Of a DNA stretch of 47,219 bases, positions 8,903 to 34,515 are shown one piece after another; position 1 is the stretch's first letter, and each line of letters opens with the position of its first letter. This DNA comes from a virus. The stretch is taken from positions 1 to 47,219 of the IMG/VR virus record IMGVR_UViG_3300033144_008054, one strand, 5' to 3'. The position numbers and the translations under genes are program-made. The notes under the pieces are model-generated. The model was not told where the DNA came from. It made no database searches and worked only from the letters and a program-made list of their open reading frames with translations.

Positions 8903-9057
8903 AATATGAAGAATTTATAGATAAATATTTATCATCTATTAAATTTTGGAATTTCATATTTATAAAGATAAAGTTTGTTTATGATAAAATATGGACACTA
9001 TTATTAGGTGGATTAAGTGTCTATATAATAAATAAAATTATAGAACATTTGAAATAA
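8899..9057 (+). CDS. Small membrane protein, 52 residues
   Basis: ATG at 8899 overlaps the TGA of the holin-like gene (ATGA), and the frame runs to TAA at 9055-9057. The product has a charged start (MKYEEFIDKYL) and a hydrophobic stretch (IWTLLLGGLSVYIINKII) that can span the membrane once. It is likely a lysis accessory protein because of its place. The AAGG at its stop is also the start box of the next gene. Confidence 0.55.
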   Translation: MKYEEFIDKYLSSIKFWNFIFIKIKFVYDKIWTLLLGGLSVYIINKIIEHLK

Positions 9058-9070
9058 AGGATTAGACAAG

Positions 9071-9391
9071 ATGAATGATAAACAAATATTGATACATAGA
9101 TTGGCTATAAATAGTTGGGTATTTAAAATGATATCTACTTTAATATTTATAGCAAGTATGTTTATAATAAATAGTTATATAATTATAATTCCATTAGTAG
9201 CTCTATGGTATTTGGATAGTTTTATACTATCAGTGGAGAGGAAGGTAAGAGATTTAGACAATGCAAAATCACAAAATCAGCTTTCATCTATAAAAAGTAA
9301 AAGAAGTATTTTTATAATGTTTAATAAAACGATGTTGATATTTCATAGTAGTTTAATAGTAGCAATATTGTTATTTTATATTTTGAAATAA
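9071..9391 (+). CDS. Membrane protein of the lysis region
   Basis: A 106-residue protein with about three membrane segments: two close together near the start (FKMISTLIFIASMFIIN, SYIIIIPLVALWYL) and one at the C-terminus (MLIFHSSLIVAILLFYIL). A charged loop lies between them. It follows an AAGGATTAG start box at 9057-9065. A second holin or antiholin is possible, but no family is recognised. Confidence 0.55.
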   Translation: MNDKQILIHRLAINSWVFKMISTLIFIASMFIINSYIIIIPLVALWYLDSFILSVERKVRDLDNAKSQNQLSSIKSKRSIFIMFNKTMLIFHSSLIVAILLFYILK

Positions 9392-10178: not shown

Positions 10179-10469
10179 TTAATCCTTTTTGGCTATTATT
10201 TTCTTTACTTGCTCTTCTACTTCATCTAATGTTTTTTGAATTTTATCTGTAAAAATCCTGTTTTCAAAAGCTTTTTTTAGTAACTGTTCTACAATATCAT
10301 CTCCATTTTTATCAATAAGTCTTTTTTTGCTATCAATCCATATTACATCTACTAAAGCTTCCTCATCACTATAATTAACATAATTTGTTTCAATATAATA
10401 TTGTTTATTTTCATATTTACACCACAATTTAAAATCTAATTTTCTATAAAATCTAATTGGTTCCATCAT
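10179..10469 (-). CDS. Early protein of unknown function, 96 residues
   Basis: This is the last gene of the leftward early operon. It starts at the first ATG of the box AAAAGGATTAGATGATG (10469). The product is charged, with a beta-like first half and a helical C-terminal part (VEQLLKKAFENRIF...EQVKKIIAKKD). I recognise no family. It overlaps the upstream gene by 17 bases. Confidence 0.6.
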   Translation of the reverse strand: MMEPIRFYRKLDFKLWCKYENKQYYIETNYVNYSDEEALVDVIWIDSKKRLIDKNGDDIVEQLLKKAFENRIFTDKIQKTLDEVEEQVKKIIAKKD

Positions 10470-10809
10470 CTAATCCTTTTATTTTTGTCATAAGTTCTTT
10501 CCAAGCCTCATCATATGAGTTAAAATATCTATTCATATCATTCCATTCTATATTATAATCATCATCATCTACATTATATATAAAAGCTAAATCACCAATT
10601 ATTTCATTATCCTCATCAACTTTAGAATTTATCATATCAAACCATTCAATATAATAACTTCCTCCTTTTGTAAAAAATGCTCCTTTTAAAAATTTTGTAT
10701 TAAGATTTAAAACATCAGTAAATTCATTTTCTTTTTTTGTTTTATCTTGTAAATTTGGCTGGTTATCATTTCTAATATCTAGTAAGTGGTGTCTTTTTAG
10801 TAAGTCCAT
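10453..10809 (-). CDS. Early protein of unknown function, 118 residues
   Basis: The start is placed at the ATG at 10809, which has AAGGATAAAAGA before it; a frame open to 10839 overlaps the neighbour and lacks an SD. The product is acidic, with a run of Asp (NVDDDDYNIEW). Its last residues (GLDDGTN) are simply the readthrough of the next gene's start box. No family is recognised. Confidence 0.6.
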   Translation of the reverse strand: MDLLKRHHLLDIRNDNQPNLQDKTKKENEFTDVLNLNTKFLKGAFFTKGGSYYIEWFDMINSKVDEDNEIIGDLAFIYNVDDDDYNIEWNDMNRYFNSYDEAWKELMTKIKGLDDGTN

Positions 10810-11147: not shown

Positions 11148-11321
11148 TTATGCTCCTATCATAGTAATAATTATCATTTGAGCTATTCTTATTGTAGCTA
11201 TAATTGATAGTATTGAAAGACATATTATAAATATAATACTTATTATATTTGTTAATGATATCCAAAGAGTAGTATTATCCATAGTTATAAACTTTCTTAA
11301 TGCTTTAAAAATTCTCATCAT
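11148..11321 (-). CDS. Small membrane protein, 57 residues
   Basis: ATG at 11321 directly follows the TAG stop of the HAD gene inside the box AAGGATTAGATGATG. The product begins with a basic stretch (MMRIFKALRKF) and is then almost wholly hydrophobic (ISLTNIISIIFIICLSILSI and on), so one or two membrane spans are expected. It is one of several tiny membrane proteins in this early operon. Confidence 0.6.
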   Translation of the reverse strand: MMRIFKALRKFITMDNTTLWISLTNIISIIFIICLSILSIIATIRIAQMIIITMIGA

Positions 11322-11966
11322 CTAATCCTTTGTTTTTATTTTACTTTCCAAGAATGCAGAATGTTTTTCTTTTTCACCACATACAAATCCCCACGGTGTG
11401 TCTTGCCACTCTGCTATCTCATCATAGGTAAGCTTTAGGTATGTCATTCCACAATTATCAGCAAATTCTTTATCTATTGACTTGTCCCCTATGTATATAC
11501 ATTCTTTTATAGTAAGAGTAGTAAATGTAAATAAGCAATAATTATCCATCAATCTTATATCTGGCTTTTTATAATCTCCATCATATATATAATCAATTAA
11601 ATCATAGCATTTAATGTTTCTTAAATATTCTTTTATCATTTCTTTGTTATTATTTGATATAATTGTCATTGGTTTATCTATTAATTTTAAGAATGGTCGT
11701 ATAATCCTTTTTTGTTCCTTGAGATTATCTTCTGTAAAGTATTTAAGATATTCATCTTTGAAGTGCTGTTCCAAGTTAGCAAAGTTACCAAATATATCAC
11801 CAAATGCCAGCCCTTGATTGTATCTGCTTTCTATTGCTTCAACATTGAGAGTTAATCCTCTGACCATCCTCATAAATTTGCCATTGTCTTTATACAGCAC
11901 TCCATCAAAGTCAAAGATGATGTGCTTGTATGGTTTTATCTTATTTTCAAAGTCTTTAAATGTCAT
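11322..11966 (-). CDS. HAD-superfamily hydrolase (phosphatase-like)
   Basis: A 214-residue protein with all four HAD motifs: DFDGV (19-23, nucleophile Asp19), TIISNNNK (101-108), a Lys in DYKKPD (133-134) and IYIGDKSID (158-166). The cap region between motif I and II is short and helical. HAD enzymes use Asp to remove phosphate from nucleotides, sugars or nucleic-acid ends; the substrate here is unknown. It lies in the early operon, so a part in nucleotide or DNA-end metabolism during takeover is likely. The stop is embedded in the next gene's start box. Confidence 0.85.
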   Translation of the reverse strand: MTFKDFENKIKPYKHIIFDFDGVLYKDNGKFMRMVRGLTLNVEAIESRYNQGLAFGDIFGNFANLEQHFKDEYLKYFTEDNLKEQKRIIRPFLKLIDKPMTIISNNNKEMIKEYLRNIKCYDLIDYIYDGDYKKPDIRLMDNYCLFTFTTLTIKECIYIGDKSIDKEFADNCGMTYLKLTYDEIAEWQDTPWGFVCGEKEKHSAFLESKIKTKD

Positions 11967-12099: not shown

Positions 12100-12250
12100 C
12101 TAATCCTTTTTTATAAAATGGTTTAAGTATAGATACTTCAATATATACTTTTTTATTATAGTTATCATAGTAATAATGTCTTTTATCAAAAAAAACTTTC
12201 TTGCTAGTATTATTCTTTAAATGAACTATTTTTATTTGCTGTCTCATCAT
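12086..12250 (-). CDS. Small basic protein, 54 residues
   Basis: ATG at 12250 follows GAATAGATGATG, a variant of the start box. The product is Lys/Tyr-rich (KKVFFDKRHYYYDNYNKKVYIEV) and ends GLDDEM, which is the readthrough of the next gene's start box. No family is recognised. Confidence 0.55.
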   Translation of the reverse strand: MMRQQIKIVHLKNNTSKKVFFDKRHYYYDNYNKKVYIEVSILKPFYKKGLDDEM

Positions 12251-12798: not shown

Positions 12799-13083
12799 TT
12801 ATTTGCCCCTATTGTGTGTCATAATATAGAAAATATTGTCTGACCATTTTAAATTATCACAAGTCATTTTTTGATTTCCATTCACTAAAATTATTTCTCT
12901 CTTATCTTTAATAATAACAATCATTAAAGACATTGAAGCATTTTGCCAACCTACAACATTATTACCTTCAAAAACAAAAGGCTCTATATCCTTATTGTCA
13001 AAAAAATCAAATAATGAAACTATCTTATCAATATCCCCTTTACAATCCTCATACTCTTGTTTAAATTGTTCCTTATTCATCAT
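12799..13083 (-). CDS. Early protein of unknown function, 94 residues
   Basis: It starts within GGGTAGATGATG at 13083 and overlaps the upstream Panacea gene by 4 bases. The N-terminal pattern MNKEQFKQEYED resembles that of the 26651 gene (MTKKQFKKEYEE) and, more loosely, other small proteins of this phage. The remainder is beta-like (SLMIVIIKDKREIILVNG). Function unknown. Confidence 0.55.
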   Translation of the reverse strand: MMNKEQFKQEYEDCKGDIDKIVSLFDFFDNKDIEPFVFEGNNVVGWQNASMSLMIVIIKDKREIILVNGNQKMTCDNLKWSDNIFYIMTHNRGK

Positions 13084-13913: not shown

Positions 13914-15290
13914 CTACCCTTTTGTTTTTAGAGATAGATTATCCCCAAATTTGATACAAAGAGAAGAAAATCCATCTTCAATGAAATTATTATATATCTC
14001 TTTTGAGTGTGTCATAATTATGATTTGTGAACACTTCTTTTTAATATTTTGCATTAATTTTCTAAATTTTACTATTGTGGTATCATCAAAAGAATTAGTA
14101 GCATCATCAAATATAAGGATATAGTCTTTTATGTCTTCTTTGAATATATTTTTTGTCATAAATATGCTAAAGCAGTAGATATCAATAGCAGACTCTGACA
14201 GTTGACTTTGGTAATTAGCTGGTTTTATATACTTGCCATCTTTAGTAATTTTAATGTTATAAGAGATGGTATTACCTCTTTTATCTTGGACTATGTCCAT
14301 TTTAGTCCTGCCATCTCCTAAGTAATTAAATATCTCAATTGTTTTTTTAGTAAAAGCATTAAGATGCTCAGATGAAGCTTCATCTATTTGTTTTTCTAAC
14401 TCTTTTATTTCTTTTTCAAAGTTAGATATCGTGTCATTATGAGCAATAAAATCTTTTAATCTCCATCTTTCTTTTACTCTACCTTTATCAGATTTTAAAT
14501 TATATATCTCATCTTTTAACACTATGATTTTATCGGTTACATCTTCACCTACTAGTTCGCAAAAGTAATCCTCCAAAGGAGGCAAAAGACTTACTTTAAT
14601 ATCGTTAATTTCTTTAACTAAAGCATCTATTTTTTCTTTTTTAATTACAATATTATTTATTTTTTGCTCTATTTTACTTTTAATATTATCATCATTTAGC
14701 AAAATAAAAGATGCAGATAGTATTGATTTTAAGTTATCCATATTATTTTCAAATACTGATTTATGAACCATTGATGATGTTAACTTATTGTATATATCTC
14801 TTATATCATTTGACTTTTCTTCAATAACTGATAAGCTGGATTGCTCTTTTTCTAAAGATGATATCTCTTCATCCATCTTTTCTACACTTTCATAGTGTTT
14901 AAGAGACTCATAATCAGATACCGCTTCATCATAATCTTTATATATCTCTAACTTCCCAATGTTTCTTTTAATCTCTAATTTCTTATCTTGTATAACTTTA
15001 ATTTTGTCATTAAGAAGCTTCACTACTGATATGTCAATCCATCTCCTTAAATTATCTTTTTGATCCTTCCCATATTCTTCACCAAATATAGCTCTTTTAA
15101 AATCTTTACCAAAAACTTCTACTTTGCTAATATTTTCACAGCTTAAATTAAATTTTCTATCTCCACCGTAATAATTATCACATAATTTAGAACCTATTGC
15201 AGTTTTGCCTGCCCCATTATCTCCATAAAATACAATCCCATTTGTTATTTTTACCCATTCTTCATCATTAATCTTAACTGCTTTTATCAT
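13914..15290 (-). CDS. SMC/Rad50-like AAA ATPase
   Basis: A 458-residue ATPase. Walker A is GDNGAGKT (23-30), a long coiled-coil region covers about 95-310, an ABC-type signature-like QLSESAID lies at 363-370, Walker B is YILIFDD (390-396), and a switch His is in MTHSKE (His428). This is the head-coil-head layout of SMC, RecN, SbcC and RloC/AAA_13 proteins, in a short form. It lies between RecT and early genes, so a job in phage recombination or end processing is likely. No nuclease partner of SbcD type is present, and no anticodon-nuclease part is seen. Confidence 0.75.
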   Translation of the reverse strand: MIKAVKINDEEWVKITNGIVFYGDNGAGKTAIGSKLCDNYYGGDRKFNLSCENISKVEVFGKDFKRAIFGEEYGKDQKDNLRRWIDISVVKLLNDKIKVIQDKKLEIKRNIGKLEIYKDYDEAVSDYESLKHYESVEKMDEEISSLEKEQSSLSVIEEKSNDIRDIYNKLTSSMVHKSVFENNMDNLKSILSASFILLNDDNIKSKIEQKINNIVIKKEKIDALVKEINDIKVSLLPPLEDYFCELVGEDVTDKIIVLKDEIYNLKSDKGRVKERWRLKDFIAHNDTISNFEKEIKELEKQIDEASSEHLNAFTKKTIEIFNYLGDGRTKMDIVQDKRGNTISYNIKITKDGKYIKPANYQSQLSESAIDIYCFSIFMTKNIFKEDIKDYILIFDDATNSFDDTTIVKFRKLMQNIKKKCSQIIIMTHSKEIYNNFIEDGFSSLCIKFGDNLSLKTKG

Positions 15291-17169: not shown

Positions 17170-17451
17170 TTATCCTTTTGTTTCTATTATTTTAAAACAT
17201 AATTCAGTTTTCATTTCTGTATTTTTTGTAAAAGCTTGTTTTTCAATTTCTTTAGGAGGAACTATATCAAATTGATTTTTTAACTCAAATATAATATACC
17301 TTTCTCTTGTAAAAAATATATTACTTCTTTTATGAGATAATACTACATCTTTAGCTATTTGATTTGCTGTAAATTTTGTTGTTATCATCTCCAATTTATC
17401 AGAAATTGTGTCCAATAATATAAACCTCTTTTTCTTTTTTTTAAACATCAT
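17170..17451 (-). CDS. Early protein of unknown function, 93 residues
   Basis: It starts at 17451 in the box AAAAGGATTAGATGATG, right after the exonuclease stop. It has a basic start (MFKKKKKRFILL), a helical middle and a beta-like end. No family is recognised. Confidence 0.6.
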   Translation of the reverse strand: MMFKKKKKRFILLDTISDKLEMITTKFTANQIAKDVVLSHKRSNIFFTRERYIIFELKNQFDIVPPKEIEKQAFTKNTEMKTELCFKIIETKG

Positions 17452-18267
17452 CTAATCCTTTTTCTTTAATTTTCTATAAGATATTCTCTCTATCCCATCG
17501 CTTATATACTCTTCTTTTTGTTCCCTAGTAATCTCTCCCATTATCTTTGCTATTGGTGGGTAATTAGTCATAGAAAATCTACCTTTACCTACACTATATG
17601 AAAGGCTATATGATTTTCCAGACCCTTTTCTTGGCTTTCCTTTGGAATTAATAAGTATTTTATCTCTCATATCAGATATTTTAATTTTTAAATCCTTTTC
17701 TTCTGCTTTTAAATCTCCATATTGATCTGCTAACTCTCCCCAATAAGGGTCTGAAGTGTATATATCCTTTATATCTATAATCTCATAGACAGCATATAAC
17801 TCCATAAGGTAAGCAAGAGAGAACCATTTAGATACATCTATTTTCTTAAAGTAAAATTCAAAAGACTCCGAATTTAAGACTAATAGATAATTATTTTTAC
17901 ACCCACTTAATAATGCTTGTTGTGATATTTGAGATACAAACTTCTCTAATATATAAGGCTCATAGCTTTTTTTAAATCTATAAGACACCATTGATTTTAG
18001 CTCTACATTTAATGACTTCTCTTTATTGTAAAAATCAAGTGTTGCTCTAAATGGCTCTTTTATAAATTGTTTTTGTTTTTCAAATTTACAACCGAACTTT
18101 TTTATTATTACAGGAGTTATTCTTTCTTCTAACTCCAGCCCTAGACGAGTATGATAAGTAGAAAACTCCACAGGGTTAGCTTTATCTAATTTTAAGCTAG
18201 TTGGTGTGTTTATAAACCTATCTATCTCCGATGCTCCTATAAGATGAGCTACTTTTTTATCTATCAT
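17452..18267 (-). CDS. YqaJ-like viral exonuclease (PD-(D/E)xK)
   Basis: A 271-residue nuclease. GASEIDRFI (11-19) is the helix seen near the start of YqaJ enzymes; GLELEE (43-48), TLDFY (76-80, Asp78) and NVELKS (87-92, Glu89 and Lys91) give the catalytic Glu, Asp and Glu-x-Lys of the fold. A Gln-rich helix (VSQISQQALLSG) follows as in the family. Such enzymes resect double-strand ends to give the tail bound by RecT, and RecT lies further along this operon. The last codons AAG GAT TAG are also the start box of the next gene. Confidence 0.8.
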   Translation of the reverse strand: MIDKKVAHLIGASEIDRFINTPTSLKLDKANPVEFSTYHTRLGLELEERITPVIIKKFGCKFEKQKQFIKEPFRATLDFYNKEKSLNVELKSMVSYRFKKSYEPYILEKFVSQISQQALLSGCKNNYLLVLNSESFEFYFKKIDVSKWFSLAYLMELYAVYEIIDIKDIYTSDPYWGELADQYGDLKAEEKDLKIKISDMRDKILINSKGKPRKGSGKSYSLSYSVGKGRFSMTNYPPIAKIMGEITREQKEEYISDGIERISYRKLKKKD

Positions 18268-18779: not shown

Positions 18780-18811
18780 GTAAAAGTAATAGTAAAGTAA
18801 TAGTATATTAA
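18779..18811 (+). repeat. Three tandem 11-bp repeats between divergent early promoters
   Basis: Units are 18779-18789, TAGTAAAGTAA (18790-18800) and TAGTATATTAA (18801-18811), ending one base before the rightward -35. The same 11-bp family occurs at 26520-26574 and, reversed, near 28758 and 28850. An 11-bp period puts each unit on nearly the same face of the helix, as in operator arrays. Confidence 0.65.
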
Positions 18812-18812
18812 C

Positions 18813-18842
18813 TTGACTTTACTATTAAAGTAGTAGTATAAT
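18813..18842 (+). promoter_or_regulatory. Rightward early promoter (TTGACT-18-TATAAT)
   Basis: TTGACT at 18813-18818 and TATAAT at 18837-18842 lie 18 bases apart, upstream of the 18875 gene and its AAGGATTAG start box (18863-18871). More TAGTAG-type repeat units overlap the -10, so a bound repressor could block it. Confidence 0.8.
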
Positions 18843-18874
18843 AGTAGTAATTTAAAAAATGAAAGGATTAGGAA

Positions 18875-19213
18875 ATGATACCAAAAATAGTTTTAATTGA
18901 TAGTTATAGAGGATATAATTTCTTTATTAAAAAGAGAACTTTAGCTCATATAGGATCATATTTTTGTGGATATGTAAAAATATTAAAAGATAAATTCCCT
19001 GATGATACAGATTGGCGGAATAAAGAGTTATCAGTTCATGGAGGAATAACTTTTGCTCAGAATGATGATGAAGATAGCGATAAATTTGTGATAGGTTTTG
19101 ATTGTGCTCATTTCAGAGATACTATTCAAAAATGTAATTTAGAATATGTTATTAAAGAATGTAAAAGTTTGATAGACCAAATCATAATAGAGGAATGTAA
19201 AAATGAATTATAA
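18875..19213 (+). CDS. Conserved small phage protein (HGG...GFDCAH motif)
   Basis: A 112-residue protein with the pattern LSVHGGITFAQ followed by FVIGFDCAHFRD and a C-terminal helix ending LIDQI. This combination of His-Gly-Gly and Gly-Phe-Asp-Cys-Ala-His is seen in small phage proteins of unknown function. It is the first gene of the rightward early operon and overlaps the next by 11 bases. Confidence 0.65.
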   Translation: MIPKIVLIDSYRGYNFFIKKRTLAHIGSYFCGYVKILKDKFPDDTDWRNKELSVHGGITFAQNDDEDSDKFVIGFDCAHFRDTIQKCNLEYVIKECKSLIDQIIIEECKNEL

Positions 19214-20023: not shown

Positions 20024-20368
20024 ATGACTAATAGTGAAATGAGAGAGATAAAGTTTGAAGCATTTATTGCTGATATTGTCGAAAGAATAGAGAAATTAGA
20101 AAAATTAGAAAATAAAGTAGCTTTTATGGATACAAAGATTGAATACTTAAGCGATAAATTGCACGAGAGAAAAATGCAAATGCAACAGTGGATTGATTTT
20201 AATCAAGTGTTATCAGAAAGATTAGCTAAAGTAGAGTCTAGAGTATCTAATTTTACCGATGCTATTGAATGTATGAAACCTGATGTTTTTGATGAAGATA
20301 AGTTAACGGAAAAGATAGCTAAAGAGATGGTAAGACAATTAAAAGAAAAGGATAAGAAAAATGAGTGA
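20024..20368 (+). CDS. Coiled-coil early protein, 114 residues
   Basis: Long heptad helices (IVERIEKLEKLENKVAFMDTK, then LSERLAKVESRVSN) predict a coiled coil. The C-terminus is Lys/Glu-rich. No family is recognised. It overlaps the next gene by 8 bases. Confidence 0.6.
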   Translation: MTNSEMREIKFEAFIADIVERIEKLEKLENKVAFMDTKIEYLSDKLHERKMQMQQWIDFNQVLSERLAKVESRVSNFTDAIECMKPDVFDEDKLTEKIAKEMVRQLKEKDKKNE

Positions 20369-21974: not shown

Positions 21975-22166
21975 ATGAAAATTAAAAAAGAACATAGAGT
22001 GATAAATTTTCAAATTGAAGTTTCAGATGCTGAGGAATTTAAGCTTAGATGTGAGGGAGATTTGCTCTCTCAAGCCCAAATATTGAGACTTTTAGTAAAA
22101 GCATATTTAAATAATGAGATTGGAATTGCGGGTCCAATGCTTAGAAGAGAGGAGAACGATTTTTAA
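21975..22166 (+). CDS. Ribbon-helix-helix (Arc/MetJ-type) DNA-binding protein
   Basis: A 63-residue protein. A short strand (HRVINFQIEVS) is followed by two helices (DAEEFKLRCEG and SQAQILRLLVKAYLN), the layout of RHH repressors. RHH dimers bind tandem or phased repeats, so the 11-bp repeat arrays at the early promoters are possible targets (inference). Its stop is next to the terminator arm of the small RNA candidate on the other strand. Confidence 0.6.
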   Translation: MKIKKEHRVINFQIEVSDAEEFKLRCEGDLLSQAQILRLLVKAYLNNEIGIAGPMLRREENDF

Positions 22167-22261
22167 AAAGAGCTCTTGGTATAAAGAGTTAGTAAAAAAC
22201 AAGAGCTCTTTAAATAAAAAAAAAGAATTTGAGAACGATTAAGGATTAGAAGTAATCGCTC
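22163..22261 (-). ncRNA. Candidate small RNA with anti-start-box loop
   Basis: From the predicted start at 22261 the RNA begins GAGCGAUUA, then loop CUUCUAAUCCU, then UAAUCG-UU-CUC, forming a hairpin with a 6-bp perfect core stem and a 3-bp base. The 11-nt loop is the exact antisense of AGGATTAGAAG and so of the start box AAGGATTAG used by many phage genes. A U-rich linker follows, then a 12-bp stem (22211-22200 with 22178-22167) and a U5 run, a likely terminator. Length about 100 nt. No expression data. Confidence 0.5.
22167..22211 (-). terminator. 12-bp stem terminator (better in the minus direction)
   Basis: AAAGAGCTCTTG (22167-22178) pairs with CAAGAGCTCTTT (22200-22211) around a 21-nt loop. 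Read leftward the stem ends in five T; read rightward only three T follow. It can end the small RNA and may also stop the rightward early operon. Confidence 0.6.
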
Positions 22262-22267
22262 TTTATA

Positions 22268-22296
22268 ATTATATTTAAATATTACGATTATGTCAA
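22268..22296 (-). promoter_or_regulatory. Perfect consensus promoter TTGACA-17-TATAAT, leftward
   Basis: On the minus strand TTGACA is at 22296-22291 and TATAAT at 22273-22268, spacer 17 bases. No protein gene is in reach downstream; the start point falls at the first base of the hairpin at 22261. Confidence 0.7.
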
Positions 22297-22473
22297 GTAG
22301 AAAAGCTATTGCAAGAGACTAACCTATCAGATTAGCAAATTCCTATTTAGCACTCTTGCAAAAGCATATAACAATGTGTTTAAACTCTTGTTATAGGGTA
22401 TTATATCATAAATAGAAGTTAATTATCAAGTATTTATTTGGTAGTGTATTTTAGTCATCATTTTTTTTAATTA
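22297..22473. other. Intergenic region with two inverted repeats
   Basis: TTGCAAGAG (22309-22317) pairs with CTCTTGCAA (22353-22361), and TATAACAA (22367-22374) with TTGTTATA (22388-22395, 13-nt loop). There is no long T-run after either. This may be transcript ends of the minus gene at 22474 or a protein-binding region. Confidence 0.4.
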
Positions 22474-22791
22474 TTATTTATTATATAGTGATATAAATCT
22501 TTTTGAATCGGATTCTTTTTTTTCTATATCTAATTCAGCTCTTCTTTTATCCCATATTTTTTGATTTTCTTTTAATGTTAGTTGTATTTCAGGTGTCATT
22601 TTAAATTTTTTCATAATATCTTGCCATACATCTTCTTTTATATCTTCACTTTTTTCCATCTCTTTTTTTAAAATATCTATTTTTTGATAATATTCAAATG
22701 TAGCTTTTTCAGGTTCACCTTTCAATGTCAAATCAATATTTTCTTGAGCTAATATTTCTAATCTTTCCCCATAACTTTTTTCTTTACTCAT
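22474..22791 (-). CDS. Helical protein of unknown function, 105 residues
   Basis: A 105-residue, strongly charged helical protein (SYGERLEILAQENIDLTL...KIWDKRRAELDIEKKES). It overlaps the end of the replication-initiator-like gene by 4 bases, so the two form one operon. It might be a loader or partner of that protein; no family is recognised. Confidence 0.6.
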   Translation of the reverse strand: MSKEKSYGERLEILAQENIDLTLKGEPEKATFEYYQKIDILKKEMEKSEDIKEDVWQDIMKKFKMTPEIQLTLKENQKIWDKRRAELDIEKKESDSKRFISLYNK

Positions 22792-23963
22792 TTTATAAAA
22801 CCTTCTTTTAATATATATTTCATTTTATTTATAGATAAATTTAAATTTTTTATTGCACTAAAATTTTTAGGTATATCTGTTATTTTACATTCAAGTTTTT
22901 TGCCATAAGATTGAGATACAATCTCTCCTGTTATTTGAATTAAAGCGGTAGATTTACCAAATATTATTCTACACTTTTCATTTAATTTTTCTTTGTTTGC
23001 TAATCTTTTAAAAACTTGTTTTGCTAAATTTTTAAATAATTTAGATTTATTATGGACTAAATCATTTTTTTTCTCTTGAGACAAAAAATTAAATGGATCA
23101 TTAGAATTAGTAGAAAGTAATTGTTTTTTACCACATTTAGAGAATAGCTTAGCTTGTATTTTTTCTCCTTGAGAAGAATTTTTATGAAATTCAACACCGT
23201 ATCTATCATAACACTCCTCATCTTGAGATGGAGGTGCTGTTTTTTGAGGCAAAGAATGCTCTGGGTTAGGGCAAATTATGCTTGTAGATGGTTTAGAGAC
23301 TAGTTTATTGAAGACATCTTTAACTTTGCTAAATAGGTTGCAAAGAATGGCAGTGATGGAGGTTAGAATGCTTTCTTTTTTGATTTTATTATTGAAATGT
23401 AATCTATTTCTTTTTGATTTATAGCTTTTAAGGTTGGTATTGGTTATAAATGTATATATTTGGCGGTTATCTCCAGTATATACAACTTTAATTAATCCCA
23501 TTATTATGAGCTTTCTTATGATTTGAGACACTCTACCTCTTGATACTTTCAATAGATTAGCAAAATATGTATTACTTGCATAACATTTCTTATTATTAGA
23601 GACATTTAGGGAATAGATTGATAGAAGAACAACCTTCTCAGATGAACATAATTTCTTACTTGATAGAAATGATGGGTACTTCTTATGATTATATGTTAAT
23701 GAAGTGGATAAGAATTTACTATAAAAGAAACTTCCATCACGGATAGTATTTGTATTTATTTGCAGGTATCTTTTCAATTTTTCAAATGATTTTATGAGTA
23801 ATTTTTCTTTAATAAGTTGAGTAATTGTATCAGAGATGGTATTTATGGGTATATTTAAAGATTTTGATATTTTAGAATTAGTAATTTGAAGCTTTTTATC
23901 TTTTTGTTTACCTGCTAAGTTAAAAAGGTGGTTGTAGATAAGAATTTTATGAGATTTTGTCAT
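22788..23963 (-). CDS. Replication-initiator-like protein with two winged-helix domains
   Basis: A 391-residue protein. The first HTH (QITNSKISKSLNIPINTISDTI, ~26-47) and a second (SNTYFANLLKVSRGRVSQII, ~129-148) each end with a Gly or Leu-rich wing (KLIIMGLIKVVY). This tandem layout is that of HTH_36-type plasmid and phage replication initiators. The C-terminal 200 residues are basic and unlike known enzymes. With no polymerase or helicase in the genome, this is the best candidate for starting DNA replication with host enzymes. It could also be a transcription regulator. Confidence 0.55.
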   Translation of the reverse strand: MTKSHKILIYNHLFNLAGKQKDKKLQITNSKISKSLNIPINTISDTITQLIKEKLLIKSFEKLKRYLQINTNTIRDGSFFYSKFLSTSLTYNHKKYPSFLSSKKLCSSEKVVLLSIYSLNVSNNKKCYASNTYFANLLKVSRGRVSQIIRKLIIMGLIKVVYTGDNRQIYTFITNTNLKSYKSKRNRLHFNNKIKKESILTSITAILCNLFSKVKDVFNKLVSKPSTSIICPNPEHSLPQKTAPPSQDEECYDRYGVEFHKNSSQGEKIQAKLFSKCGKKQLLSTNSNDPFNFLSQEKKNDLVHNKSKLFKNLAKQVFKRLANKEKLNEKCRIIFGKSTALIQITGEIVSQSYGKKLECKITDIPKNFSAIKNLNLSINKMKYILKEGFIK

Positions 23964-24013: not shown

Positions 24014-24442
24014 GTTTATTTGAAATATAGATATTTTGTTAAATTGTGGGATGCATTATATTAACATGGGGGGTATATTGCTAATTACTACGATATAATG
24101 GAACTTATAGAGGAAATAATGCTATTATCCGCATATTTAAGATAAAATAAGATAAATACAAGAGGAAAGATGCAATTGGTGGGGGATACATAGTAATACA
24201 AAGGAAATAATAGAATGAACTATGGTAACACCCCTATATATTATACTAATAACCCCATTTAACTATTCTAGAACATATATTAGTATTAATATTAGTATTC
24301 ATAAAAGGTAATAAAAGGAAGTTTTTCCTTTTCTTAATATTATTGCTCCTAAAAAAAGCTCTTTAAGAGCTTTTTAGGCATAATATTCTAGTGGAGTTGG
24401 GATTAAGATTAGATATTTGTTAAAGGAAAGGTATAATAGTTA
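24014..24442. other. Intergenic region with hairpins
   Basis: No convincing gene. It contains a hairpin AAAAGGAA/TTCCTTTT (24313-24320 with 24325-24332) and a larger one (24348-24363 with 24365-24378) of terminator type. A TATAAT at 24432-24437 precedes the tRNA-like element; its -35 is weak. Confidence 0.5.
24348..24378. terminator. Bidirectional terminator-type hairpin
   Basis: CCTAAAAA and AAGCTCTT (24348-24363) pair with AAGAGCTT and TTTAGG (24365-24378), with a small bulge of two A. A-rich on one side and T-rich on the other, it can work both ways. It shares the AGAGCTCTT core with the element at 22167. Confidence 0.55.
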
Positions 24443-24507
24443 TGCATGGATATTGAAATAAATTTAAAATGGATTTGGTTTATGCAAGTTAGACTCTTGC
24501 CCATGCA
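24443..24507 (+). ncRNA. tRNA-like element without a D arm
   Basis: A 7-bp acceptor-type stem TGCATGG/CCATGCA (24443-24449, 24501-24507) directly adjoins a perfect T-arm: GCAAG (24484-24488), 7-nt loop TTAGACT, CTTGC (24496-24500). The part between has only 34 bases, too short for D and anticodon arms; one hairpin fits. Loop position 56 is A instead of C, as expected if there is no D-loop partner. TATAAT ends six bases before it. No CCA is encoded. Confidence 0.4.
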
Positions 24508-24543
24508 CTTTGTTTATTATATTAAAAGAAAGGATTTAAAATA

Positions 24544-26382: not shown

Positions 26383-26519
26383 TATAATATACCTCCTATA
26401 ACTTAAACCAATCTTAAAGTTTTAATCTAATATATATCCTCTAAAATTTAGATATTATGCCTCATAATCCAATATATCATAAAATAGTAAATATTTTACT
26501 CTTTTTTAGCTCTTTTTAA

Positions 26520-26574
26520 TAGTAATCTAATAGTATCTTAGTAGTATCTTAATAGTAATATAATAGTAAAGTAC
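26520..26574 (+). repeat. Five tandem 11-bp repeats (TAGTAnnnTAA)
   Basis: TAGTAATCTAA, TAGTATCTTAG, TAGTATCTTAA, TAGTAATATAA and TAGTAAAGTAC follow each other without gaps. One further 11-bp step leads to the -35 at 26586. The same family lies at the divergent early promoters. Confidence 0.75.
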
Positions 26575-26585
26575 TATAAAATTAC

Positions 26586-26614
26586 TTGACTCGTTGTTTT
26601 TGTTTAGCTAAGAT
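26586..26614 (+). promoter_or_regulatory. Promoter (TTGACT-17-TAAGAT)
   Basis: TTGACT at 26586-26591 and TAAGAT at 26609-26614. The leader then carries an 18-base string (26619-26636) found again at 27927-27944 at the same distance from the second promoter. Confidence 0.7.
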
Positions 26615-26650
26615 ATAAGTAGTTAAAAATAGAAAATAAAGGATTAGGAA

Positions 26651-26911
26651 ATGACAAAAAAACAATTTAAGAAAGAGTATGAAGAAGCACAGGTAAAAGG
26701 TTTTGAGGATCTAAAATCTTTTATAAAAGAAAATATATCAGTCTATAATTCAGTCTATAATAATGTTATAGTAAGATGTGATACTGATACAGATATGTTT
26801 ATATCTAATAATAAAGATATATTAGTTATAAGAATTAATACTGCTAAACTAGTAAAAATACATAAACAACTTACAATAGATGAAGTATATGACTTCATAT
26901 GTAATGAGTAA
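26651..26911 (+). CDS. Protein of unknown function, 86 residues
   Basis: It follows the box AAGGATTAG (26639-26647). The N-terminus MTKKQFKKEYEEA resembles the 12799 gene (MNKEQFKQEYED). The rest is beta-like with a helical end. No function is recognised. Confidence 0.6.
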   Translation: MTKKQFKKEYEEAQVKGFEDLKSFIKENISVYNSVYNNVIVRCDTDTDMFISNNKDILVIRINTAKLVKIHKQLTIDEVYDFICNE

Positions 26912-26927
26912 AAACAAAGGATTAGTT

Positions 26928-27957: not shown

Positions 27958-28257
27958 ATGATGAATTTAAAAGAATTTATAGATTATTTAAAAGCAGCTG
28001 CTAAAATAGAAAAGTTAGATTTGTATTTATCTAAAATACTATTAGATAAAGAGTGGGATGGATCTGGAGACACTACTGGGGACTTTGTTAAGGGGTGTGA
28101 TACTATAACATTAACAAAGACTAGACACTTAAGTGACGCAGGGTATTTCTATTTTGGAACCAAAATAGAGCTAAAAACAAAATATAAAGATATAGAGATT
28201 GTAGGTAGGGATGATGTCCAGACTCTTTATGATACTATCTATATAAATAAGGATTAG
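27958..28257 (+). CDS. Protein of unknown function, 99 residues
   Basis: A 99-residue protein, with ATGATG start behind GAAAGGATTTAGA. The middle has GDTTGDFVKGCDTITLTKT and is beta-like. Its last codons AAG GAT TAG are also the start box of the next gene, an exact stop-start coupling. No family is recognised. Confidence 0.6.
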   Translation: MMNLKEFIDYLKAAAKIEKLDLYLSKILLDKEWDGSGDTTGDFVKGCDTITLTKTRHLSDAGYFYFGTKIELKTKYKDIEIVGRDDVQTLYDTIYINKD

Positions 28258-28259
28258 GA

Positions 28260-28592
28260 ATGAATGATTATACAAAAACTATTAAAAATATATATAATAG
28301 TTTAAAAGTAGATTATCAAAAAGCTTATAAAGAAGGTACTCTTAAAAACTTCTTTTTAGATAATACTAAAGATTATCATATAGTGTTTCATAAAACTAAT
28401 GAAATGTTAGATATTATAAGAGTAGACGGATCTAGGTTTACTTATCTTATAAAACAAAATATTATTATCATAGATAATGATTTTAGCTACCCAGTAGGTA
28501 AAGATACTATTAAAGAACGGGTTATTATAGAATTTTTTAATAAAGAGCTAGACTGCATACATAGATTTAATAGCCTTAGCAAACTTAAGTAG
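28260..28592 (+). CDS. Protein of unknown function, 110 residues
   Basis: It starts two bases after the previous stop, using the AAGGATTAG box at 28249-28257. It has helical ends and a beta-like middle (DYHIVFHKTNEMLDIIRVDG). Function unknown. It is the last gene before the convergent boundary. Confidence 0.55.
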   Translation: MNDYTKTIKNIYNSLKVDYQKAYKEGTLKNFFLDNTKDYHIVFHKTNEMLDIIRVDGSRFTYLIKQNIIIIDNDFSYPVGKDTIKERVIIEFFNKELDCIHRFNSLSKLK

Positions 28593-33501: not shown

Positions 33502-33533
33502 CCATATAATCAAAAGCAAAATATAAGGATTAG

Positions 33534-34010
33534 ATGATGGATAAGATTACAACATACATAACTAACTTGAAAGAAATGTCAGAGGACAAACTATTAAAAA
33601 AAATACAATCAATACCTGTTGATATGAGATTAAAAAGAGCAAAAATTATGAATGATGATAAAACTAAAATTAGAAAAAAATCTTTTAGTTTTGAAAGATT
33701 TAAAAGAAATAAAACATTTCTTTTACTTTATGAAGATTATTTTAATCTTAAATATATAATCATAAACATTTATTGGGGCAAGACAGCTGATGAAATATTT
33801 AATAAAAATTTTGAAAGTATAAATAGGATAAAAATAAAAATAAATGATGAACCTAATATATTTCACAAAACTTTTGTTTTATTATGTGTATATGATTGGC
33901 ATTATATGAACTCAGTAGATAAATGGTCATTTAAAATTATGTCTCAATATATAAAAAAAGGTTATATAAATATTAAAAAATCACAGGCATATATAATAAA
34001 TCAAAATTAA
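33534..34010 (+). CDS. Protein of unknown function, 158 residues
   Basis: It starts in the box AAGGATTAGATGATG (33525-33539). The product is basic, helical and aromatic (FKRNKTFLLLYEDYFNLKYIIINIYWGKTADEIF). It contains a CVYDWHYM segment. No family is recognised. Confidence 0.6.
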   Translation: MMDKITTYITNLKEMSEDKLLKKIQSIPVDMRLKRAKIMNDDKTKIRKKSFSFERFKRNKTFLLLYEDYFNLKYIIINIYWGKTADEIFNKNFESINRIKIKINDEPNIFHKTFVLLCVYDWHYMNSVDKWSFKIMSQYIKKGYINIKKSQAYIINQN

Positions 34011-34022
34011 GGATTAGATGAT

Positions 34023-34301
34023 ATGAATTTTACAGATGAAATAAATAAAATAAAAAAAAGTATTAGTGATTTAGAAAATAAATATTCTAAAAAATATACT
34101 ATTAATCAGATAAGTGAAGTTATAAATAAAAAAATATCATTTTTGGAACAATATAATAGAAATATATATAGAGGTGCTTTTCCAGATGGTATAGAAAATG
34201 ATCCACTTATGACAAAAATAATAGAAAACTTTACAGCCCAAATATTTATTTTGAACGAACTAAAAGATAAATTTAATAAAGGATTAGATGATGAACTATA
34301 A
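34023..34301 (+). CDS. Helical protein of unknown function, 92 residues
   Basis: The box AAGGATTAG (34009-34017) is followed first by an ATG that ends after two codons (ATG ATA TGA, 34018-34026) and then by the true ATG at 34023. The product is helical. Its last residues (GLDDEL) are readthrough of the next gene's start box. Confidence 0.6.
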   Translation: MNFTDEINKIKKSISDLENKYSKKYTINQISEVINKKISFLEQYNRNIYRGAFPDGIENDPLMTKIIENFTAQIFILNELKDKFNKGLDDEL

Positions 34302-34515
34302 AGATTATACAGAATATTTAGAAGAATACCAACTAATTTTCTTAGAAGAATTTAAAACAGACGATATTAGATTTGTAAGAACAACAGAAGATTTTTATAT
34401 ATATAAAAATAATAGAGGTGAGTATTTAAAAGCCAGTATTGATACTACTGAATTTTATATATTTAATGACGAAGAAGATCTACAAAATAATAATCCAAAC
34501 TATAGTTTGGATTAA
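34288..34515 (+). CDS. Small acidic protein, 75 residues
   Basis: It starts at the ATGATG of the box at 34279-34293. The product (MMNYKDYTEYLEEYQ...) is acidic and Tyr-rich; the N-terminus resembles that of the 19203 gene. Function unknown. Confidence 0.55.
   Translation: MMNYKDYTEYLEEYQLIFLEEFKTDDIRFVRTTEDFYIYKNNRGEYLKASIDTTEFYIFNDEEDLQNNNPNYSLD

Follow-up and report, generated by a model that had tools for sequence, protein, structure and literature searches.

A candidate phage small RNA with a hairpin loop complementary to a start box repeated in the same genome

What does a perfect promoter serve when no gene lies in front of it? The question is raised by positions 22296 to 22163 of the window, by which we mean the whole 47,219-nucleotide stretch of viral DNA analysed here. 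Promoter P2 (TTGACA-17-TATAAT; minus strand, 22268-22296, with the -35 box at 22296-22291, the -10 box at 22273-22268 and a predicted +1 at 22262-22261) is the sole 12/12 sigma-70-type promoter in the window, where a first-order Markov model gives an expectation of 0.15. As the preliminary description had claimed, it fires leftward with no gene downstream. It sits in a gene-free gap, the closest leftward gene stopping upstream at 22474 and the plus-strand genes at 22166. The phage is myovirus-like, with genes for TerL, portal (PF06381), DUF3383/sheath, baseplate J, RecT, RusA, SSB and an adenine methylase, and a DnaD/O-like replication gene (22788-23963) adjoins the unit considered here. Its SSB is 51-54% identical to Nitratiruptor phage SSBs, followed by those of Helicobacter prophages, which suggests a host among the Campylobacterota; the other genes do not settle the host. 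Campylobacterota often dispense with a -35 box, so the perfect -35 of P2 is weaker evidence in that group.

The sequence downstream of P2 has the parts of a small RNA, all on the minus strand. A 5' hairpin (22232-22262), present in both the MFE and centroid folds, starts exactly at the predicted +1; its 10-bp stem (AGAGCGAUUA/UAAUCGUUCU) includes one imperfect pair, a G-U on the minus strand and an A-C on the plus strand. The 11-nt loop CUUCUAAUCCU (22242-22252; complement AGGATTAGAAG) has an unpaired probability of about 1.0 and is the candidate pairing site. Sequence and fold then give a U-rich single-stranded linker (22212-22231) and a terminator-like stem-loop (22163-22211) with a 12-bp stem (22211-22167) and a 21-nt loop, which a simple terminator scan missed because that loop is too large. 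Hairpin, loop, linker and terminator stem were thus all recovered where they had been proposed. The U run after the terminator stem is found on the minus strand only, at 22163; a U5 run lies partly within the stem, and the tract past it is short, a tail weaker than ideal. The candidate RNA of about 100 nt folds with z = -5.5 against shuffles and contains no ATG, and is therefore not an evident mRNA. Own promoter, no ORF, intrinsic terminator and stable fold are what a stand-alone small RNA gene has in sequence, and the anatomy of 22296-22163 supports an independently transcribed and terminated small RNA, the transcript itself being predicted. Rfam 15 covariance models matched nothing in the window at the gathering score and gave only sub-threshold hits (E up to 5).

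The same region could be read as the place where the leftward replication operon (23963-22474) terminates, structured at its 3' end but without a separate small RNA. Between 22474 and 22163 there is no other obvious terminator, and the minus-strand U run at 22163 is what such an operon end would show. Beyond the last gene, however, come two good leftward promoters (22429, 22296), and transcription from each would begin at +1 with a hairpin; the end of an operon calls for neither of them, and we regard this reading as very unlikely.

The promoter at 22429 belongs to a second leftward unit (22297-22429, minus strand; TTGATA-18-TATAAT at 22429-22400, 11/12, with TG before the -10) that the first description did not include. 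It has a hairpin at its own +1, then a large stem (GCUUUUGCAAGAG/CUCUUGCAAUAGC) with UUUU after it, and a fold z of -2.5; 22429-22163 may therefore hold two tandem RNA genes. The upstream RNA (22429-22297) was considered as a sponge for the CUUCUAAUCCU loop and rejected, the duplex reaching only -4.8 kcal/mol. Several other elements were seen nearby. A 10-nt direct repeat, GAGAACGATT (plus strand), occurs at 22231-22240, within the 5' hairpin on its 3' arm, and at 22152-22161, just beyond the terminator; transcription past the terminator could give an RNA with another fold. A strong terminator-like palindrome (AAAAAGCTCTT/AAGAGCTTTTT, 24345-24375) lies in the 580-bp gap upstream of the replication gene. 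At 24441-24510 (plus strand) a tRNA-like fold joins a 7-bp stem (TGCATGG/CCATGCA) to an adjacent 5-bp arm with a 7-nt loop (GCAAG-TTAGACT-CTTGC); ARAGORN calls no tRNA there, and the plus-strand fold is no better than shuffles. Its motif GCAAGAG[AT]CTAAC is found again at 22311.

If the RNA is made, what would its loop address? The 9-mer AAGGATTAG, which faces the loop, occurs 14 times in the window against 0.98 expected: 12 times at gene starts, once within a coding sequence (6786) and once at the hairpin itself (22241). It is the top 9-mer among the 79 gene starts, and the 12 starts, found on both strands, bear out the earlier count of at least twelve. All 12 copies directly precede start codons, and seven of them read AAGGATTAGATGAT. 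On the plus strand the boxes lie at 9057-9065 (before gene 9071-9391), 18863-18871 (gene 18875-19213, leading the SSB-containing operon), 26639-26647 (gene 26651-26911, leading another plus-strand operon), 26917-26925 (a 102-aa ORF from 26928), 28249-28257 (gene 28260-28592), 33525-33533 (gene 33534-34010), 34009-34017 (gene 34023-34301) and 34279-34287 (gene 34288-34515), with ATGATG starts at 33534 and 34288. Those on the minus strand, at 10470-10478 (gene 10179-10469), 11322-11330 (gene 11148-11321), 12100-12108 (a 47-aa ORF from 12099) and 17452-17460 (gene 17170-17451), all precede ATGATG starts.

The twelve boxed proteins are small, mutually unrelated and of no assigned function, and their upstream flanks are dissimilar; duplication of a single cassette therefore does not explain the start box. 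The box is absent from all 28 structural genes (Fisher p = 0.006). The targets had been called early genes, a timing that is presumed; the sequence shows them to be non-structural. The other common start type among the 79 start regions is AAAGGATAA, and AAGGATAAA starts occur at 20024 and at 13914-15290. As a separate observation, TAGATGAT(G), with a doubled ATG after TAG, is found at 13 gene starts (for example 33534, 34288 and 12799-13083), and the doubled ATG after TAG occurs also with the Shine-Dalgarno forms AAAGGGTAG and AAAGAATAG. Repeats of the TAATAGTA type at 18787-18855 and 26517-26586 precede two plus-strand operons whose first genes both start with AAGGATTAGGAAATGA; operators or origin repeats are possible roles for them.

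For all twelve boxes a duplex of 9-11 bp with the open loop is predicted, at about -10.5 to -13.1 kcal/mol, an energy range that takes in 12-13 start regions. When pairing was predicted against all start regions, as the preliminary description had proposed, the 12 best partners (-12.4 to -13.1 kcal/mol) included 11 of the 12 boxes, with the twelfth at -10.5 kcal/mol. The loop had also been called the exact complement of the box; pairing extends over 9-11 bp at all twelve sites, but the full 11-nt complement AGGATTAGAAG occurs nowhere except where the RNA itself is encoded. Real boxes run on as AGGATTAGATG or AGGATTAGGAA, and the end pair is a mismatch or a G-U: a box followed by ATG gives a U-U mismatch and then a G-C, one followed by GAA gives a G-U, and 10-11 pairs still form. 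The first A of AAGGATTAG faces the first stem base, outside the loop.

We evaluated this match against chance in several ways. Shuffled loops matched at least 12 starts by an 8-mer in 0.4% of cases, and a whole-RNA Markov model did so in 1.5%. Among 71 comparable hairpins in the window (stem of at least 8, loop of 7-15), a single loop matches an 8-mer common to at least 4 starts; it is CUUCUAAUCCU, and its word is the most shared (13). With the U-rich parts included, 10% of shuffles reach at least 12 starts with a 9-nt match, the U-rich rest of the candidate RNA matching A-rich starts trivially, and a laxer energy cut-off for duplexes gives only p = 0.04. The loop-box test was itself picked after the match had been seen. 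The two copies of AAGGATTAG away from starts, against about one expected, are no excess; what carries the argument is the exact placement of one of them in the loop. By predicted pairing, an unpaired part of the RNA is complementary to several ribosome-binding sites, more than chance would give, and we take the loop-box match to be probably, though not certainly, meaningful.

The RNA might be real and its loop match due to chance or to a generic anti-Shine-Dalgarno UCCU, the RNA acting on host mRNAs, as an antisense RNA or in an OOP-like role linked to replication. One random copy of AAGGATTAG per window is roughly what is expected, and the unit both adjoins the DnaD/O-like replication gene and has its 3' end at the opposing operon's stop codon. 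Yet the match passes the Shine-Dalgarno core and continues through UUAG, a stretch outside what the ribosome reads, and it sits exactly in the open loop; an overlap of only about 4 nt with the opposing gene would leave an OOP-like RNA almost no target. We consider this explanation unlikely.

The symmetry of the hairpin also allows a reading at the level of DNA, in which the inverted repeat GAGCGATTA-N11-TAATCGTTC, at +1 to +30 of P2, is an operator bound by a phage repressor and the RNA is incidental. The half-sites, separated by about 20 bp, directly follow the promoter, their symmetry is near-perfect, and CGATTA is present in the P2 spacer too (22285). There is no second copy of the repeat, however, GA[AG]CGATTA being limited to the two arms and one intragenic site, and other control regions carry different repeats. 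An operator would still leave P2 with no gene to control and would make the box match a coincidence, and we find this quite improbable. The chance is slighter still that the plus-strand AAGGATTAG at 22241 is left over from a gene start since lost, with a fortuitous hairpin around it. The 9-mer is identical to that of real starts, and AAG, one change away, stands at the ATG position, but no start codon lies at a usable distance, a stop follows directly, and the surrounding 10-bp stem and abutting promoter would both have to be coincidences.

We also took comparative approaches to ask how far the box and the RNA extend beyond this phage. In the window, 12 of the 44 AAGGA starts have TTAG next to the AAGGA. 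In 84 phage loci picked out by related SSB genes (from Nitratiruptor, Helicobacter and metagenome phages), the proportion is 13 of 1061 AAGGA-ATG pairs, a total that pools real and chance starts; the box is thus a habit of this phage and not of the wider group. None of the 80 loci reached by aligning SSB carries the candidate RNA or shares the box habit. A comparison at the DNA level with phages and plasmids gave no match, a search of IMG/VR turned up no copy of the exact hairpin loop, and the replication protein and portal used as queries gave no relatives. Alignment of TerL to IMG/VR and GTDB genomes found nothing near among the matches listed, where identity was at most about 36% over most of the protein and 38% over a part, and a peptide pattern specific to TerL led to no close relative.

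A perfect promoter followed by CTAATCCT was found in 73 IMG/VR contigs, none of them with the promoter-loop-terminator layout plus start boxes. The nearest look-alikes were L317, where CUAAUCCUU stands unpaired in a unit that has promoter, hairpin and terminator, and L339, whose leader hairpin has a UAAUCCUU loop; neither shows a box set. Many phages have isolated copies of the pattern AAGGATTAGATGATG, with at most three boxes at starts per locus. The SSB, TerL, loop and promoter searches therefore gave no relative carrying hairpin and box in which covariation of the two could be followed. As an observation in its own right, L317:76-150, on an isolate-derived phage contig, has a strong terminator and is another possible phage small RNA; no box set occurs in the part of that contig examined.

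Several known RNAs resemble the candidate in part. The CiaR-controlled csRNAs of Streptococcus, for which a block of initiation by anti-Shine-Dalgarno pairing has been proposed, are likewise short, with two stem-loops and an unpaired anti-Shine-Dalgarno/anti-start stretch able to pair with many starts (PMC3091779). They are bacterial, exist in several copies and pair between their stems, where an anti-AUG CAU lies beside the anti-Shine-Dalgarno; the phage candidate is single, pairs through a hairpin loop, has CUU in place of CAU and so falls outside the csRNA family. Listeria LhrC blocks initiation at lapB by binding the Shine-Dalgarno sequence, and, like LhrC, RNAIII, RsaE, SprD and FsrA (PMC4132741), the candidate has a C/U-rich loop for the Shine-Dalgarno sequence and a predicted block of initiation. 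The LhrC-type RNAs have a UCCC core, whereas the match described here also takes in UUAG, part of a phage-specific box. Helicobacter pylori RepG (PMC8295292), probably from the same phylum as the host, similarly directs a C/U-rich hairpin loop at purine-rich sites; in RepG the terminator loop meets G-repeats in a leader, and in the candidate the 5' loop would meet the repeated start box AAGGAUUAG, so that it does not belong to a RepG family so defined.

Among phage RNAs, VpdS (phage VP882) and PreS (lambda) are phage-encoded small RNAs that base-pair with their targets in the course of infection, and VpdS affects phage and host mRNAs (PMC12197685). Both are Hfq-dependent, and, as far as that review tells, their targets are not set by a start box repeated in the phage. 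The candidate shares with lambda OOP (PMC5869508) the form of a short terminated phage RNA beside a replication gene. OOP overlaps the cII mRNA and is antisense to it, whereas the candidate lacks extensive overlap with an opposing phage mRNA: its terminator-like stem-loop abuts the plus-strand operon and the RNA reaches only the stop codon at 22164-22166. The novelty claimed in the preliminary description has therefore to be narrowed, since phage small RNAs acting on phage and host mRNAs are known (VpdS, PreS, OOP). What would be new is a phage small RNA matched to a start word that is repeated in, and specific to, the phage that encodes it, for which no precedent was found.

To the reading that unit 22296-22163 is a stand-alone noncoding RNA gene, whose loop represses some twelve boxed small non-structural genes together, we give about even chances. 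Transcription, termination, pairing in the cell, repression and timing would then run as follows. The RNA of about 100 nt would be transcribed from P2 and end at its own terminator, and the open CUUCUAAUCCU loop would make first contact with the AAGGAUUAG start box. A 9-11 bp duplex would span the Shine-Dalgarno core, the spacer and sometimes up to the A of AUG, bar the 30S subunit and so block initiation, reducing translation of the whole gene set at once. Such repression would probably turn the boxed genes down at one infection stage. More tentatively, and with chances somewhat short of even, the private box AAGGATTAG and its cognate master RNA form a post-transcriptional regulon within one phage, in which an extended Shine-Dalgarno sequence is the address.

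The same logic suggests a search in other phages for hairpin loops antisense to an over-represented start word. If the proposal is true, a dozen genes on the two strands would answer to one short RNA with no transcription factor involved, with a word at the ribosome site serving as the address, and the phage would time expression post-transcriptionally, probably in a group where RNA regulation is little explored.
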